This document shows positions 7,103-14,258 of a stretch of 37,536 bases of DNA, piece by piece. The DNA lies in NCBI GenBank assembly GCA_040905475.1, contig JBBDRM010000063.1, positions 1 to 37,536 of the forward strand, read 5' to 3'. Both the position numbers and the translations under genes were made by a program. The stretch comes from Actinomycetota bacterium (lineage in GTDB: Bacteria; Actinomycetota; AC-67). Under the pieces are notes generated by a model. It did no database searches. It saw only the letters and a program-made list of their open reading frames with translations, and was not told the origin of the DNA. Position 1 is the first letter of the stretch; each line of letters starts with the position of its first letter.

Positions 7103-8443
7103 TCAGCCGGTGACGGGGCGGAGCACGTCGACCAGCGTCGGGGAGCCGACCTCCTCGAGCTCGTAGGACACGCGGTAGGCCGGGACCTTGATGTCGACGA
7201 CCTTGCGCAGGTCGATCGGCGTCGCTATCAGCACCGCATCGGCACCCGCCGCGTTGATCGTCTCGGCGAGCTCGGCCCGTTGCTTGTCCGAGTAGCCCAT
7301 CGCGGGGATCAACGGACCCACGATCGAGTATCTCTCGAAGGTCTCGCGGATCGAGCCGACCGCGAACGGCCGCGGGTCGATGAGCTCGGCGCCCGCCTTG
7401 CGCGCGGCCAGGACGCCGGCGCCGTAGGCCATGTCCCCGTGCGTGAGTGTGGGACCGTCCTCGACCACCAGGACCCGCTTGCCTCGCAGATCGATATTGG
7501 TGTCTTCGATGGTGATAGGAGATGCCGCCTTGACGAGCGTCGCTCCGGGATTGAGCTCGACGACGGACGCCTCCACTTCGGCCACCTGTTCGGGCGTGGC
7601 GGAGTCGACCTTGTTGATGACGATGGCGCCCGCCATCCGTACGTTCGCTTCGCCCGGGTGATAACGACGCTCATGCCCGGCGCGCAGCGGATCCACCACG
7701 ACGATGTGCACGGTCGGAGCGAAGAACGGCAGGTCGTTGTTCCCGCCGTCCCACACGATCACGTCCGCCTCTGCTTGCGCCTTGGCGAGGATGTCCGCGT
7801 AATCGACGCCGGCGTACACGACGTGGCCGGCACGGATCGTGGGCTCGTACTCCTCGCGCTCCTCGATGGTGACGCCGGCGGCGTCGAGGTCGGCGTCGTT
7901 CGCGAAGCGCTGACAGCGCTGAGCCTCCAGATCGCCGTACGGCATCGGGTGGCGCACCGCCACGGTGCGCTTCCCGGCGTTACGAAGGATCGTGAGCACG
8001 CGACGGGTGGTCTGCGACTTGCCTGCGCCGGTGCGGGCGGCACAGACGGCTACGACGGGAACCGCCGAAGGCAGCATCGTCTCTCGCGAGCCGAGCAAGC
8101 GGAACCCGGCACCGGCAGCCAGCGCGATCGAGCCCTGGTGCATGACGTGCTCGTGCGGCACGTCGGAGTAGGCGAAGACGACGTCATCGACGTTCTCGCG
8201 TCGGACCAGGTCGGCGAGCTGATGCTCCTCGACGATCGGGATCCCTTCGGGATAGTGCGGGCCCGCGAGCGACGGCGGATACCGTCGGCCGGCGATGCCG
8301 GGGATCTGCGTTGCCGTGAAAGCGACCACCTCGGCGGTCGGGTCGTCCCGGTAGACGGTGTTGAAGTTGTGGAAATCGCGCCCGGCCGCGCCCATGATCA
8401 CGACGCGGCGTCGTTCCCGGCTCGGATCCGTCATGGCCGCCAT
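7103..8443 (-). CDS. COG2403 P-loop protein (cyclic 2,3-diphosphoglycerate synthetase-like)
   Basis: 446 residues, close in length and layout to methanogen cyclic 2,3-diphosphoglycerate synthetase and the 'predicted GTPase' group COG2403. An N-terminal Rossmann-like part (VVIMGAAGRDFHNFN, 14-28) is followed by a P-loop A-x4-GKS (ARTGAGKS, 136-143), a conserved RHPMPYGDL (164-172), DGGNND (232-237) as a possible metal/phosphate site, and NKVD (277-280), matching the guanine motif NKxD. In bacteria the biochemical role is not established to my knowledge. It is the first gene of an operon with carbamate kinase, which could mean an acyl/carbamoyl-phosphate related reaction. An in-frame ATG at 8434 is an alternative start. 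Confidence 0.75.
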   Translation of the reverse strand: MAAMTDPSRERRRVVIMGAAGRDFHNFNTVYRDDPTAEVVAFTATQIPGIAGRRYPPSLAGPHYPEGIPIVEEHQLADLVRRENVDDVVFAYSDVPHEHVMHQGSIALAAGAGFRLLGSRETMLPSAVPVVAVCAARTGAGKSQTTRRVLTILRNAGKRTVAVRHPMPYGDLEAQRCQRFANDADLDAAGVTIEEREEYEPTIRAGHVVYAGVDYADILAKAQAEADVIVWDGGNNDLPFFAPTVHIVVVDPLRAGHERRYHPGEANVRMAGAIVINKVDSATPEQVAEVEASVVELNPGATLVKAASPITIEDTNIDLRGKRVLVVEDGPTLTHGDMAYGAGVLAARKAGAELIDPRPFAVGSIRETFERYSIVGPLIPAMGYSDKQRAELAETINAAGADAVLIATPIDLRKVVDIKVPAYRVSYELEEVGSPTLVDVLRPVTG

Positions 8444-8495
8444 TGTACGGACGCGGAGCGCCCGGTCCGCGGGTGGATGGTTTTGCCCGGTCCCC

Positions 8496-8711
8496 TTAGC
8501 CGGCCGGGGCGACCTCGTACCCGGCGTCCGCGATGGCCTGGGAGATCTGCTCGAGGCCGACCAGGCCGGAGTCGAAGATCACTTCGACCCGGGCGTCTGC
8601 ATGGCTCGCGGTGCACGAGGCGACACCCTGGAGGCGCTTCAAGGCCTTGCTGATCGATTCCTCGCAACCCGTGCAGTCCATCCCGGTGACGTCCAGTACC
8701 TTCTTCTCCAT
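8496..8711 (-). CDS. copZ: Copper chaperone, heavy-metal-associated (HMA) domain protein
   Basis: A 71-residue single HMA domain (ferredoxin-like fold) with the metal loop GMDCTGCEES: Cys13 and Cys16 bind Cu(I). It ends with DAGYEVAP, the usual last strand. It is a cytosolic chaperone that would hand copper to the CopA ATPase encoded just upstream. The ATG lies 9 bases after the CopA stop and a GGGGGAGCG ribosome site overlaps that gap. The pair should be one transcript driven from the operator at 10913-10933. Other HMA cargo (e.g. silver) is possible. Confidence 0.88.
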   Translation of the reverse strand: MEKKVLDVTGMDCTGCEESISKALKRLQGVASCTASHADARVEVIFDSGLVGLEQISQAIADAGYEVAPAG

Positions 8712-8720
8712 CGCTCCCCC

Positions 8721-10901
8721 TTACGCGGTGTACGCGGGCGTCTTCTTGAGCCTGAGCGCGTTGCCGACGACGGACACGCTCGAGGCGGCCATCGCCCCCG
8801 CCGCCAGCATCGGGTTCACGAGCCCGACGGCGGCCAGCGGGATCAGCGCCGTGTTGTAGAAGAACGCCCAGAACAGATTCTGCATGATGGCTCGGTAGGT
8901 CCGCCTGGCGAGGTGGATCGCCGTCGGCACCCCGAGCAGATCATCTCCGACCAGCGTGATATCGGATGCCTCGATCGCGACGTCGGTGCCCGAGCCGATC
9001 GCGATGCCGAGCTCGGCCTGGGCGAGCGCCGGTGCGTCGTTGATGCCGTCGCCGGCCATCGCAACGCGTTTGCCTCCGGCCTGGAGACGCTTCACCTCAT
9101 CGACCTTGCCGGCGGGCAGCACCTCCGCGCGGACGTTCTCGATGCCGACCTCGCGAGCGATCGCTTCGGCGGAGGCCCGGTTGTCGCCGGTGAGCATGAC
9201 GACCTCGAGCCCGAGCTCGCGCAAGGCGCGTACCGCGGCTGCCGAGGTTGGCTTGATCGTGTCGGCCACCGCGATGAGCCCGCGCACGCGGTTGCCCCAG
9301 CCGACGCCGAACGCCGTCTTGCCCTGACCTTCCAGCGCGCCGCGCCGATCATCGAGCTCCGCGCACGAGACGAGGCCGTTCTCGGCGAGCAGAGCCGGCT
9401 TGCCGACCACGACGCGGCGGCGGCCGACTGTGCCGATCGCGCCGAGCCCGCCGGCGGCTTCGAACTTGGTCACCGCCGGGCGGTCGAGACCGCGCTCCTC
9501 GGCAGCGGCCACGACGGCTCGAGCGATCAGGTGCTCGCTCGAGGCCTCGACCGCGGCGGCGATCCGGAGCACTTCGTCGGGGGTCGCGGCTTTGTCGTTC
9601 CACTCGTCCGCAACGACGTCCGTCACGCGCATCTTTCCCTGGGTGATCGTCCCCGTCTTGTCGAGCACGACAACGTCGATGGTGCGCGATCGCTCGAGCA
9701 CTTCTCCGTTGCGGATCAGGATGCCGAGCTGCGCGCCGCGTCCGGTCCCAACCATGATCGCCGCCGGCGTCGCGAGCCCCATCGCGCACGGGCACGCGAT
9801 GATCAGGACCGCCACCGCGGGAACGAGCGCGTCGCCGACGTCGTGTCCCGTCGCCAACCAGGCGACGAACGTCGCGGCCGCGATCACGAGCACGATGGGA
9901 ACGAACACCGCCGCCACCCGGTCGGCGAGCCGCTGGATCGGAGCCTTCGAGCCTTGGGCCTCTTCGACCAGGCGCACGATCTGGGCGAGAACGGTGTCGG
10001 CCCCGACGCGGGTCGCCTCGACCGTAAGCACGCCGTGCTGGTTGATCGTGCCGCCGATCACGTCGTCGCCGACGTCCTTCTCGCGCGGCACCGACTCGCC
10101 GGTAACCATCGACTCGTCGACCGCAGACAGGCCGGCGCGGACGACGCCGTCGGTTGGGATCTTCTCGCCGGGCTTCACGAGCAATAGATCGCCGGGACGC
10201 ACCTGGTCTGCAGGGACCATGAACTCGGAGCCGTCGCGGATCAGGCGCGCTTCCTTGGCGCCGAGACGGATCAGATCACGGATCGCCGCGGACGCCCGGC
10301 CGCGCGAAGTCGCCTCGAGGTACTTGCCCAGCAAGATCAGCGTGATGATCGTGCCGGCGGTCTCGAAGTACACGTCCTCGCGCCCGGCGACGACCGCCCA
10401 CGCGCTGTAGACGTAGGCCGTCAAGGTTCCGACGGCGATGAGCGTGTCCATGTTGGCTTCGCGCCGGCGGGCCAGCTTGGCGGCGTTCGCGAGGAACCCC
10501 CACCCGGCCCAGAACTGCACCGGTGTGACGAGCACCCACGCGGTCACCATGGCCCAGCGAGCGTCGGAGAGCATGGCGATCGCCATCGCTGGGACGCTCA
10601 GGATCGCGGCCACGACGAAGTGACGGAGATGGCCTCGAGCCTCGGTCGACGCGCGTTCGTCCACGCCGGCGTCGGGCAGGCGAGCACCGTATCCGGAACG
10701 CTCAACCGCGGCGATGAGGGTGCCGGAGTCGGCCCGATGCTCGCCATCGACCAGCACCCGGGCTCGCCCGGTCGCGAAGTTGACGTTCGCTTGGACCACG
10801 CCGGACTGTCGCGTAAGGACCTTTTCGATCCGCGTCGCGCAGGAGGCGCAGGTCATGCCCTCGAGGTCGAGTTCGATCGGATCTTGCTGGGTGGCTGCCA
10901 T
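8721..10901 (-). CDS. copA: Copper-translocating P1B-type ATPase
   Basis: 726 residues, full length for CopA: exports Cu(I) from the cytoplasm using ATP. One N-terminal HMA domain has MTCASC (Cys18, Cys21). Membrane helices follow from about 92, then the actuator TGES (267-270), the transport motif CPC (370-372), phosphorylation site DKTGT (Asp414) and hinge GDGIND (617-622). The late helices show FYN and MAASSVSVV, the P1B-1 copper signature. In the nucleotide domain the usual SEHP is SEHL (455-458), so the conserved Pro after His457 is replaced. The ATG at 10901 has no ribosome site and lies 10 bases from a TATACT box, suggesting an almost leaderless message. Confidence 0.94.
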
Positions 10902-10911
10902 CGTGTCGTCT

Positions 10912-10933
10912 AGTATACCCCCTGGGGGTATAC
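10912..10933 (-). promoter_or_regulatory. CsoR-like copper operator overlapping the copA -10 box
   Basis: Arms GTATACCCCC (10913-10922) and GGGGGTATAC (10924-10933) form a perfect 10+10 inverted repeat around a single T. It matches the TACCCnnnGGGTA-type sites of the Cu(I)-sensing repressor CsoR. On the minus strand TATACT (10912-10917) overlaps its distal arm, so a bound repressor would cover the -10. The next start codon is copA at 10901. No csoR gene is in the window. Confidence 0.8.
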
Positions 10934-10947
10934 GGAATCCAGCCGGC

Positions 10948-11901
10948 TCAGATCAGCTCGCGGGCCAGTGCGGCGGCGCCAACCACCCCGGCGTCGTTGC
11001 CGAGTTCGGCGAGCACGACGCGGACCGGGGTGCGCCAGGACGGGCCGAGCACGTGCGCCATCATTGCCTCGCGCGCCGGCCCGAGAAGCAGCTCGCCCGT
11101 GCCTGCGGCGGCACCGCCCCCGATGACGATCACCTCGGGGTCGAAGATGTTCACGATGCTGGCCAGCCCGATGCCAAGGAGCCGGCCGATCGTGGCGACG
11201 ACGTCTCGGGCGAAGGCGCTGCCGGCAAGCGCTGACTCGCCGACGAGCTCGCCGGTGATCGCCTCGAGGTTCCCCCCGACCGACGCGAGAAGGTCGGCGC
11301 CGGCCCCGCCCTCGACCCGCTGTCGCGCGAGCCGACCGATCGCGGTGCCGGAGGCGACGGCCTCCCAGCAGCCGCGGTTCCCACAGCCGCACACCGGTCC
11401 GTCGGGATCGATCACGATGTGTCCGAGCTCCGCGCCCACCCCGTAATGCCCGCGATAGATGCGGCCGCCGATGATGATGCCACCGCCGATCCCGGTGCCG
11501 ACGGTGATCATGATCTGATCGCCGGCGCCGCGCCCGGCTCCGTGGAGCGCCTCGGCGAGCGCGGCGACGTTGGCGTCGTTGTCGACGACGACCGGGAGGC
11601 CCAGCCGGTCTTGAAGCGTGTCGCGCACGGCCACGTTGCGGTAGGCGAGGTTCGGCGCGCCGAGGATCACACCTCGAGCGACGTCCACGAGCCCAGCCGC
11701 TCCGACGCCGGCGGCGGCCGCGGCCGGCGCTGCCGCCTTCATCTCGCGCGCGACTTTGAGCATCGATGAGACGATCGCGCTGGGCTCATCCGACTCGGTC
11801 GGCACCTGGCGGCGGGCGATGACGTTCCCATCGGGATCGACGACCGCGGCGGCGATCTTCGTCCCGCCGACGTCGATGCCGATCGTTGGAGGAGGGCTCA
11901 C
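10948..11901 (-). CDS. glkA: ROK-family glucokinase
   Basis: 317 residues; ATP-dependent (possibly polyphosphate-using) glucose phosphorylation in the cytoplasm. It has the ATP motif GIDVGGTK (8-15), catalytic Asp109 in DNDAN, GTGIGGG (135-141), the sugar-contacting Glu158 and His161 in AELGHI, and the ROK zinc signature [10 protein letters not shown] (171-180; Cys171/173/178). The phosphate-binding late motif is VIVIGGGAA. No N-terminal helix-turn-helix, so it is a kinase and not a ROK repressor. It starts at GTG 11901 inside a GTGA overlap with the CxxCxxC gene, so it is translationally coupled. Actinobacterial homologues take part in glucose repression; whether this one does is unknown. 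Confidence 0.9.
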
Positions 11902-12269
11902 CTAACGCTGATCCGTTGGAGCGTGTTCACTTGTTCCCAACGGTCGGCTTGCGACTCGACGAGGGCTCGGAAGGCGAGAAAGAGCTCGTGGCCTGCAGCC
12001 ATGAGATGTTCCATCGCCTCGGGCCGGCTCTGCTGCAACGCGTACAGCGACATGCAGATCGGGCAGACGAGGCACTGCGCGGACATGCCCGGCATGAACG
12101 GTGACGCCGGTGGAACGTCGCCCGTCGCATCGTAGCGGTGCGGCGGCTCCTGTGGAGTCTCGCGGCGCGACCGCTTGGGGGGTGCTTCCCTGCTCGGCGG
12201 CTTGCGCGATGCCCTGCGCGGAGTCCGTGCGGACGACTTCTTAGCCGCCGGCTTCTTCTTCGCCGGCAT
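11898..12269 (-). CDS. Small CxxCxxC protein with lysine-rich tail
   Basis: 123 residues of unknown function. Residues 1-45 are Lys/Arg/Pro/Ala-rich (AKKKPAAKKSSAR), like disordered nucleic-acid-binding tails. The folded part holds CLVCPIC (Cys66, 69, 72) followed by LQQSRPEAMEHLMAAG and a helical end. I recall a similar pattern (CPVC...RPE..EHL) in small actinobacterial proteins next to glucokinase and ArsA-like genes, but cannot verify it. The Cys trio plus His88 could bind zinc or another metal. It is locked into the operon: its ATG overlaps the ATPase stop (TGATG) and its TGA overlaps the glucokinase GTG. Confidence 0.7.
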   Translation of the reverse strand: MPAKKKPAAKKSSARTPRRASRKPPSREAPPKRSRRETPQEPPHRYDATGDVPPASPFMPGMSAQCLVCPICMSLYALQQSRPEAMEHLMAAGHELFLAFRALVESQADRWEQVNTLQRISVR

Positions 12270-13501
12270 CAGGCTCCCCCTCGAGCGGCCCGACGCGGCG
12301 CGGGTGGCGGCGGCTCGGCCGCACCGCCGCGGGGCTCGCGACGCTCGAACGTGATGTTCAACCGCCCGTCCTCGAACGCCGCGTCCGCGATCTCGAGCCG
12401 CGACAGCACCGTCGGAAGCATGAGGCTTCGCCGGTACGGACCCACCTTGACGTGGATGTCGTCACCCTTCCGCATCAGATCCAGCTCGCCCTTGTCGGTG
12501 AACGCAAGGCGCAGCGACAGCACGTACTTGTCGCCGCTCCTGCGCACCTGCACCGGATCGTCCTTGTAGAGGATCGAGGTCGGGTCTTGCTTCCCGTAGA
12601 GATCCTTCCCGAGCTTGTCGAGGAGCTTCACGCCGATCATCTCGCGGTCGTACAGCGGGACCGTGAGCACCGGCACCGGTGAGAACGATTCACGGATCGT
12701 CTCGAGGTGCTCGCTCTGGACCGCCTTCCATTTCTCGAAGTAGGGGTCGTGAACCTCGTCGGGCAGGAGCCGGTTGCACACCACGGCGTCGACCCGGTAG
12801 CCGAACAGGTTGAGGTACGTGTAGGTTCGACGCGCCTCGGCGATCACCATCTTCTCGGCGTTCATCACGAGCCGCACGGTGCTCGTCTTCTGATCGGTCA
12901 GCAGGCCGCGCACATCCTCGAGGGTGTGGTGCATCCGCTCGATCGCCTTGAAGACCTGATCGTTGGCGATGAGCGGGCCGATCACTCGGTTGAAGACGGG
13001 CCGCACGACCTTGGCGACCTTGCGCTCGATGGGGAAGATCCGCTCGAAGTACCAGTTGAGCACGTCGGGAAGGCTAAGGAGGCGCAGCGTTTCGGCGGTC
13101 GGGGCGCAGTCGACGACGAGCAGGTCGTAGGAGCCGTCGTCGGAGGCGCGCTTCACGTCGGTGAGGCTGAAGAGCTCGTCGAGGCCCGGGATGACCGATA
13201 GCTCCTCGGCGCTGATCGCGTCGACGCCGCCCCACTCCATGATCCCGAGCACGTACTCCTGGATCTCACGCCAGCCCTCCTCGAGCCGTTCCTGGGCGTC
13301 GATCTGCTGTCCCCACAGGTTCGGAGCGACCTCGGTCGGGTTGCTGCCGAGCGGGACGTCGAACGCATCGGCGAGCGAGTGCGCAGGATCGGTCGACATC
13401 ACGAGCGTACGAACGCCCGCGCGAGCGGCGCGAACGGCGGTAGAGGCGGCGACGGTGGTTTTCCCGACGCCGCCTTTGCCGGTAAAGATAAGGATGCGCA
13501 T
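12269..13501 (-). CDS. ArsA/GET3-type ATPase with C-terminal Hsp20-like domain
   Basis: 410 residues from ATG 13501 (an in-frame ATG at 13519 with GAGGG upstream is an alternative; the open frame runs further back without a credible start). MRILIFTGKGGVGKTT is the deviant Walker A with signature lysine Lys9; STDPAHSLADAF (36-47) and VVDCAPTAETLRLL are the switch regions of the SIMIBI class. The last about 70 residues (YVLSLRLAF... to ITFERRE) look like the ArsA_HSP20 domain. Such single-domain homologues are not necessarily arsenite pumps; GET3-like roles in handling membrane or tail-anchored proteins are an alternative. No arsB or arsR lies nearby. First gene of the trio with the CxxCxxC protein and glucokinase. 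Confidence 0.85.
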   Translation of the reverse strand: MRILIFTGKGGVGKTTVAASTAVRAARAGVRTLVMSTDPAHSLADAFDVPLGSNPTEVAPNLWGQQIDAQERLEEGWREIQEYVLGIMEWGGVDAISAEELSVIPGLDELFSLTDVKRASDDGSYDLLVVDCAPTAETLRLLSLPDVLNWYFERIFPIERKVAKVVRPVFNRVIGPLIANDQVFKAIERMHHTLEDVRGLLTDQKTSTVRLVMNAEKMVIAEARRTYTYLNLFGYRVDAVVCNRLLPDEVHDPYFEKWKAVQSEHLETIRESFSPVPVLTVPLYDREMIGVKLLDKLGKDLYGKQDPTSILYKDDPVQVRRSGDKYVLSLRLAFTDKGELDLMRKGDDIHVKVGPYRRSLMLPTVLSRLEIADAAFEDGRLNITFERREPRGGAAEPPPPAPRRAARGGA

Positions 13502-13610
13502 AGGAGGGACCTGGAGCATACCGGCGGCCCTCAGGCCCAACAACCGACCTGCTCGCGAGTTTGACCGATCCACGTCTGGATGGAAAGGCTTACCCAAGGA
13601 GGTGGAGCGG

Positions 13611-14258
13611 ATGCTGGATGCGTTCACGTGGTACAAGCAAGCGGCCCTGAAATGGAAGGGTCAAGGGCTCACGGTGCACATCGACCCGTGGGGCATCCCG
13701 GATGGGGAAGAGGCCGCGGATCTCGTCCTGATCACGCACGCGCACTTCGATCACTTCAACCCGGAGGACTTCGCGAAGGTCGTCAAGGACGGAACGATCA
13801 TCGTCGCCCCCGAGGACGTCGCGCGCGACTGCGTCGCGAGCGGAGACGTCCGCCCGGTCAAGCCGGGACAGACGATCGAGGCGGCCGGGCTGCAGATCCA
13901 TACGATCCCCGCGTACAACATCGCGAAGGAACGGCTCGAGATGCATCCGCGCGATAACAATTGGGTCGGATACGTCGTCGAGCTCGGCGGGAAGATGACC
14001 TATCTCGCCGGCGACACCGATCACGTCCCGGAGATGGCCGACATCAAAACGGATATCGCGTTCGTGCCGGTCGGCGGCACCTACACGATGGACGTCGCTG
14101 AGGCTGCCGGTGCGATCAAGGAGATCTCGCCGAAGCTCGCCGTGCCGTACCACTTCGGCTTCGTGGTGGGAACGCGCTCCGACGGCGACGACTTCCTGCA
14201 GGCGATCGCACCGATCGAGGGTACGGTCATGAAGCCGGTCAACCCGTTCGAGTGCTGA
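13611..14258 (+). CDS. MBL-fold metal-dependent hydrolase
   Basis: 215 residues, UPF0173-like small metallo-beta-lactamase fold. The zinc motif is THAHFDHFNPED (HxHxDH: His43, His45, Asp47, His48); later ligands are Asp in YLAGDTDHVPEM and His in VPYHFGF. No signal peptide, so cytoplasmic. Residues 1-30 (LKWKGQGLTVHIDPWGI) show the usual first strands. The start ATG at 13611 is preceded by AAGGAGG (13595-13601); GTG 13602 in frame is less likely because it abuts that site. Divergent from the ArsA gene and convergent with the SRPBCC gene. Substrate unknown; related proteins hydrolyse phosphodiesters or thioesters. Confidence 0.85.
   Translation: MLDAFTWYKQAALKWKGQGLTVHIDPWGIPDGEEAADLVLITHAHFDHFNPEDFAKVVKDGTIIVAPEDVARDCVASGDVRPVKPGQTIEAAGLQIHTIPAYNIAKERLEMHPRDNNWVGYVVELGGKMTYLAGDTDHVPEMADIKTDIAFVPVGGTYTMDVAEAAGAIKEISPKLAVPYHFGFVVGTRSDGDDFLQAIAPIEGTVMKPVNPFEC

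Follow-up and report, generated by a model that had tools for sequence, protein, structure and literature searches.

The window, a stretch of 37,536 nucleotides that makes up the whole of contig C63, carries on its minus strand a gene for a copper-type P1B ATPase (copA, 8721–10901), followed downstream on the same strand by a gene for a copZ-like HMA copper chaperone (8496–8711). The copA product has a single HMA domain at its N-terminus together with ACPC, YN and MxxSS motifs, the last two of which are marks of Cu(I) ATPases. Upstream lie three further minus-strand genes, which read toward copA as an earlier note on this DNA had stated: a gene for an ArsA/Get3-type ATPase (12269–13636), a small DUF5304-like gene (11898–12269) and glk, encoding a ROK-family glucokinase (10948–11901). 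The trio is tightly packed, with overlaps of 1 nt (TGATG) between the first two genes and 4 nt (GTGA) between the second and the third. A literature search on glucokinase and copper returned nothing relevant by title. Between the end of glk at 10948 and the copA ATG at 10901 lie 46 bases, the gap length given in the earlier note.

This gap holds a predicted CsoR-type operator (10913–10933, with no strand assigned). The perfect 10+10 inverted repeat described there before was confirmed: its 21 bases read GTATACCCCC-T-GGGGGTATAC (on the copA strand, GTATACCCCCAGGGGGTATAC), and the arms at 10913–10922 and 10924–10933 are 100% complementary around a 1-base centre. Its reported distance of 11 bases to the copA ATG stands, and the distance to the last base of glk is 14 bases instead of 15. 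Inside the palindrome, TAC-CCCCTGGGG-GTA at 10916–10930 forms a dyad in which TAC and GTA enclose 9 bp that include the G/C tracts. Type 2 CsoR sites, as described in excerpts of the report on the Streptomyces lividans protein (PMC3902906), consist of a TAC/GTA inverted repeat across 9 bp with internal G/C tracts; the same excerpts give AT-rich repeats about 11 bp apart and two G/C tracts with 2–4 bases between them. In the present operator, the outer repeats are spaced by 11 bp, the C5 and G5 tracts are separated by only 1 base, and the sequence agrees with the most conserved positions of the S. lividans consensus ATATACCCCTNAGGGGTATAT published in those excerpts.

Perfect symmetry was dropped as evidence for an operator. 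Of 60 simulated windows (first-order Markov), 27 contained a perfect 10+10 repeat whose centre was 0–3 bases long, so that in a window as G+C-rich as this one symmetry alone is weak evidence. The 21-mer itself, at up to three mismatches, occurs once in the window and in none of 100 shuffles.

The genome to which the window belongs (G000) comprises 4,242,618 bases in 173 contigs and is 97.4% complete, with 4.4% estimated contamination. The 19-bp core of the palindrome at up to three mismatches was found at three places genome-wide, compared with none for a reversed control pattern, and all three sites stand directly before copper genes. Besides the one at copA, a second site (C142, 1 mismatch) lies upstream of a gene for a copB-like P-type ATPase that starts with a His-rich stretch and contains a CPH motif, after a SURF1 gene, and a third (C148, 3 mismatches) lies directly upstream of a CsoR-family gene, csoR1, after a CrgA gene. 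Given where CrgA occurs, this neighbour of csoR1 points to an actinobacterial genome. The earlier note had seen no csoR in the window and had proposed a search for it, and for the palindrome, in the rest of the genome. Both CsoR-family matches of the genome are indeed on other contigs (C148 and C96), and csoR1 is itself preceded by the operator. That the window lacks csoR follows from where the contig ends and from the dispersed layout known for such genes. The apparent puzzle of an operator without a repressor is thereby settled: the repressor gene lies on a different contig and has this operator as well. Since the assembly is binned, with 173 contigs and the contamination given above, the linkage of csoR1 to this genome rests on binning, although a csoR neighbourhood alike in its genes occurs in the relative G003.

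The csoR1 product belongs to the PF02583 family and contains the Cys-His-Cys set that forms the copper ligands of CsoR, an RLXR motif (RLKR) and the conserved Gln (TQIS). It aligns with the solved CsoR chains 4m1p, 4adz and 2hh7, which we take to be the Geobacillus, S. lividans and Mycobacterium tuberculosis proteins, respectively, and its RLKR and TQIS segments line up with 4adz. A C-H-C motif is given for CsoR in excerpts of a regulon study (PMC4938975), and the RLXR motif and the Gln are described as required for DNA binding by S. lividans CsoR in the excerpts of PMC3902906.

Family, order and class are each represented by the same five genomes (G000–G004), and a wider comparison at order or class level therefore adds nothing. 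Two of the five, the window genome and G003 from another genus, have copA, the site (up to 2 mismatches) and a CsoR gene together; none of these was found in G001, G002 and G004, which are 62, 82 and 94% complete. The copA of G003 is 71% identical over the longest aligned stretch, and the operator is conserved at the same place before it, with 2 mismatches and with a ROK gene (glk) again preceding. G003 also shares the csoR1 gene neighbourhood, by likeness, and its csoR is preceded by a more diverged site, GATACCCCCTCCGGGTATG, with 4 mismatches by our own count. The promoter of that csoR is laid out differently, as TATACT stands on the other side of the site, and by eye no -10-like box lies some 10 nt ahead of its start codon. 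Separately, the G003 copA (locus L044 on contig C22, about 1.6 kb into the locus) matches in two pieces, 49610–51382 and 49303–49611, which points either to a shifted frame close to the 3' end of the gene or to a fault in the assembly.

The overlap of the palindrome with TATACT, claimed from the sequence before, was recovered as well: this predicted -10 box (minus strand, 10917–10912; 5/6 match) falls largely within the operator's right arm. The copA ATG follows the box after 10 nt, and the best -35 match is poor (3/6). As the right arm holds the likely -10 box and the start codon comes 10 nt further on, the copA transcript is probably leaderless. In G003, a TTGACC element (5/6) and a TATGCT box, 17 bp apart, frame the operator before copA, an arrangement that speaks for the promoter position assigned in the window. 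The distance from the -10-like box to the start codon is 9 nt for G003 copA and 8 nt for csoR1, whose promoter has a best -35 match of 2/6 and a -10 box of 4/6. At four copA loci of another family (L066–L069), the -10-like end of the operator stands 8–9 nt before the ATG (for L068, from the printed sequence), so that the leaderless layout recurs. The copB-like gene of the window genome starts 24 nt after its box, and other loci, such as L062, L064, L065 and L070, have, by eye, a longer leader with a purine-rich stretch resembling a ribosome site.

The reading we prefer, with a probability of about 0.92, is that the palindrome is a type 2 CsoR operator through which CsoR1 would repress copA-copZ, the copB-like ATPase and itself, with Cu(I) causing release. 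The three sites, the csoR1 ligands, the fit to S. lividans and the conservation in G003 together point to a dispersed, self-regulated CsoR regulon of a known kind. The earlier proposal that a CsoR-type operator controls copA is thus supported at the level of sequence, and it now extends to a predicted three-site regulon in which csoR1 has its own site. At low copper, apo-CsoR1 would bind the operator, cover the copA -10 box and block the polymerase; Cu(I) bound at the Cys-His-Cys site would then release CsoR1. copA-copZ would be transcribed from a start some 3–5 nt before the ATG, probably as a leaderless mRNA. CsoR1 would also control the copB-like ATPase gene and csoR1, and all would be induced together. 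For this scheme we infer the binding, the copper response, the transcription start and the co-transcription of copZ, whereas the operator, its overlap with the -10 box, the three sites, the csoR1 ligands and the conservation in the relative are read from the DNA itself. This locus gives a lineage represented by only five genomes a predicted copper regulon, and it clearly exemplifies a CsoR operator that forms part of a probably leaderless promoter.

A bound operator might, in addition, act as a roadblock or boundary for transcription arriving from the ArsA-like, DUF5304-like and glk genes. This role is compatible with repression by CsoR1, but we do not favour it and regard it as doubtful. In its support, the trio reads toward copA across only 46 bases, and the statement that no terminator separates them held in a simple scan of 8000–14000, where the copA strand had no terminator-like site and the other strand had one (such a scan misses Rho-dependent ends). 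However, the corresponding gap in G003 is 184 nt long and contains a long hairpin, so the tight packing of glk and copA is not conserved, and among the matches listed in the literature search no title reports a CsoR roadblock or read-through. The further suggestion that copper repression is bypassed by read-through is made less likely by the probably leaderless start of copA: if copA is leaderless, the ATG in read-through RNA would follow a 9-bp stem and have no clear ribosome site. Carried further, this would give the one 21-bp element three jobs, as promoter spacer and -10 box, as CsoR operator and as a hairpin before the start codon in read-through RNA from glk. We consider such a combination quite unlikely; if it held, only the copper-induced leaderless mRNA would be well translated, and the promoter would shield copA from the genes upstream with no need of a terminator.

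It is very unlikely that the product of the second CsoR-family gene, csoR2, binds the copA operator, either in place of CsoR1 or along with it. The csoR2 protein (C96) also has the Cys-His-Cys set, the RLXR motif and the Gln, and its gene has a third copper-type ATPase gene some 6 kb away on the same contig and belongs to a cluster that includes, from the translations, ABC transporter, two-component and DsbD-like genes. Yet C96 has no operator at up to three mismatches, whereas csoR1 has one immediately upstream, and G003 has the copA site together with a single CsoR-family gene found, in a csoR1-like neighbourhood. The third ATPase (L043:8883-11834, in G000) is itself a fusion, in which one frame of 983 aa encodes a cupredoxin-like domain, an HMA domain, the P-type ATPase and a C-terminal YHS domain.

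That the palindrome arose by accident, or serves the glk operon as an RNA hairpin (terminator), has a practically negligible probability. Roughly every second window of this kind would contain a perfect 10+10 repeat by chance, and the present repeat, if transcribed, folds into a 9-bp stem. However, no U-run follows it, the local RNA fold is not unusual (z −1.25), the sequence recurs at two further places in the genome, both at copper genes, and it is kept in the relative G003. A terminator or known RNA element was rejected on the missing U-run, the terminator scan of the copA strand and the lack of any Rfam match at gathering score in 8000–14000; the stem is a by-product of the palindrome.

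We surveyed 396 genomes of the phylum for the 19-bp core at up to one mismatch, which was present in 43 of them (reversed control, 0). A CsoR-family gene was found in 40 of the 43 genomes with the site (a number compiled by hand) and in 262 of the 353 without it (one-sided Fisher p = 0.0028, ignoring relatedness), a weak test of co-occurrence because CsoR-family genes are common (302/396). The three site-bearing genomes with no CsoR match are G158 (96% complete), G241 (68%) and G383 (71%). One locus each was sampled from 29 of the 42 other site genomes and its neighbours were compared by phmmer (E up to 1e-4), a test that uses P-type ATPases and does not prove copper specificity. A homologue of copA, copB, copZ or csoR lay within 400 bp at 18 of these 29 loci (17 reading away from the site, 1 overlapping it); at 3 a csoR homologue stood at 1.2–1.3 kb, and at 8 there was none.

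A search for the perfect 21-mer in a collection of species genomes returned 20 stretches, only 4 of which lie within 400 bp of a copper-gene homologue, and the perfect 21-mer is not diagnostic by itself. Eight of the 20 belong to a single Clostridiales MAG, RGIG8239 (L015, L016, L019, L021, L022, L024, L027 and L029), where six share flanks; these eight resemble copies of a repeat element more than CsoR operators. Other genes also adjoin perfect or near-perfect sites, among them those for ArsP_1 permeases (L052 by Pfam; L051 and L054 by likeness), MFS transporters (L018 by Pfam; L017 by likeness), a DUF302 protein (L060) and a NicO transporter (L053).

Five of the 20 perfect 21-mers (L013, L020, L023, L025 and L030) stand directly upstream of genes with a DUF4396 domain (PF14342), as does the site at one locus of the phylum set (L055). 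DUF4396 is a family of unknown function whose proteins here are small and apparently membrane-bound, with an HCxxGC motif; one paper names it at the flank of a metal-resistance cluster. PF14342 matched in 49 of the 396 phylum genomes, 41 of them above the cut-off, and the window genome gave no match. The best 30 loci by protein match (L076–L105) include L055 again, as L095, and many of them belong to families f11 and f19. A site with no more than three mismatches occurs somewhere in 20 of these loci and in none of 600 simulated ones. Its distance upstream of the HCxxGC codons is at most 260 nt in 16 of the 30 and 269 and 321 nt in two more; in another two it lies elsewhere, and the other ten have no site. 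The DUF4396 gene is thus a candidate member of the CsoR regulon, and the motif, used as a probe, would link this family to CsoR-type control.

The predicted regulon resembles several described systems. In the gut Firmicutes CsoR meta-regulon, excerpts of the report (PMC4938975) present csoR and copA separately under CsoR sites as the norm, as found here; the high-confidence sites there have their peaks some 90 and 65 bp before the start, whereas the copA operator ends 11 bases away. The nickel regulator NreA of Mesorhizobium likewise has a CsoR/RcnR-family operator in the spacer between -35 and -10 and a leaderless transcript, backed by 5'-RACE in a reporter strain according to excerpts of its report (PMC12724321). 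It differs in its metal, in its operator with a single G-tract and in a regulator that is encoded within the operon it controls. A further parallel to the reading preferred here is the S. lividans regulon as portrayed in the excerpts of PMC3902906, in which CsoR acts on its own gene and on two copper-ATPase loci through G-tract TAC-N9-GTA palindromes, with a second CsoR protein in the genome. In the window genome, by comparison, copA precedes copZ, CsoR1 would have a CPH-type copB-like ATPase as its second target, and the copA operator has a one-base centre and perfect symmetry.
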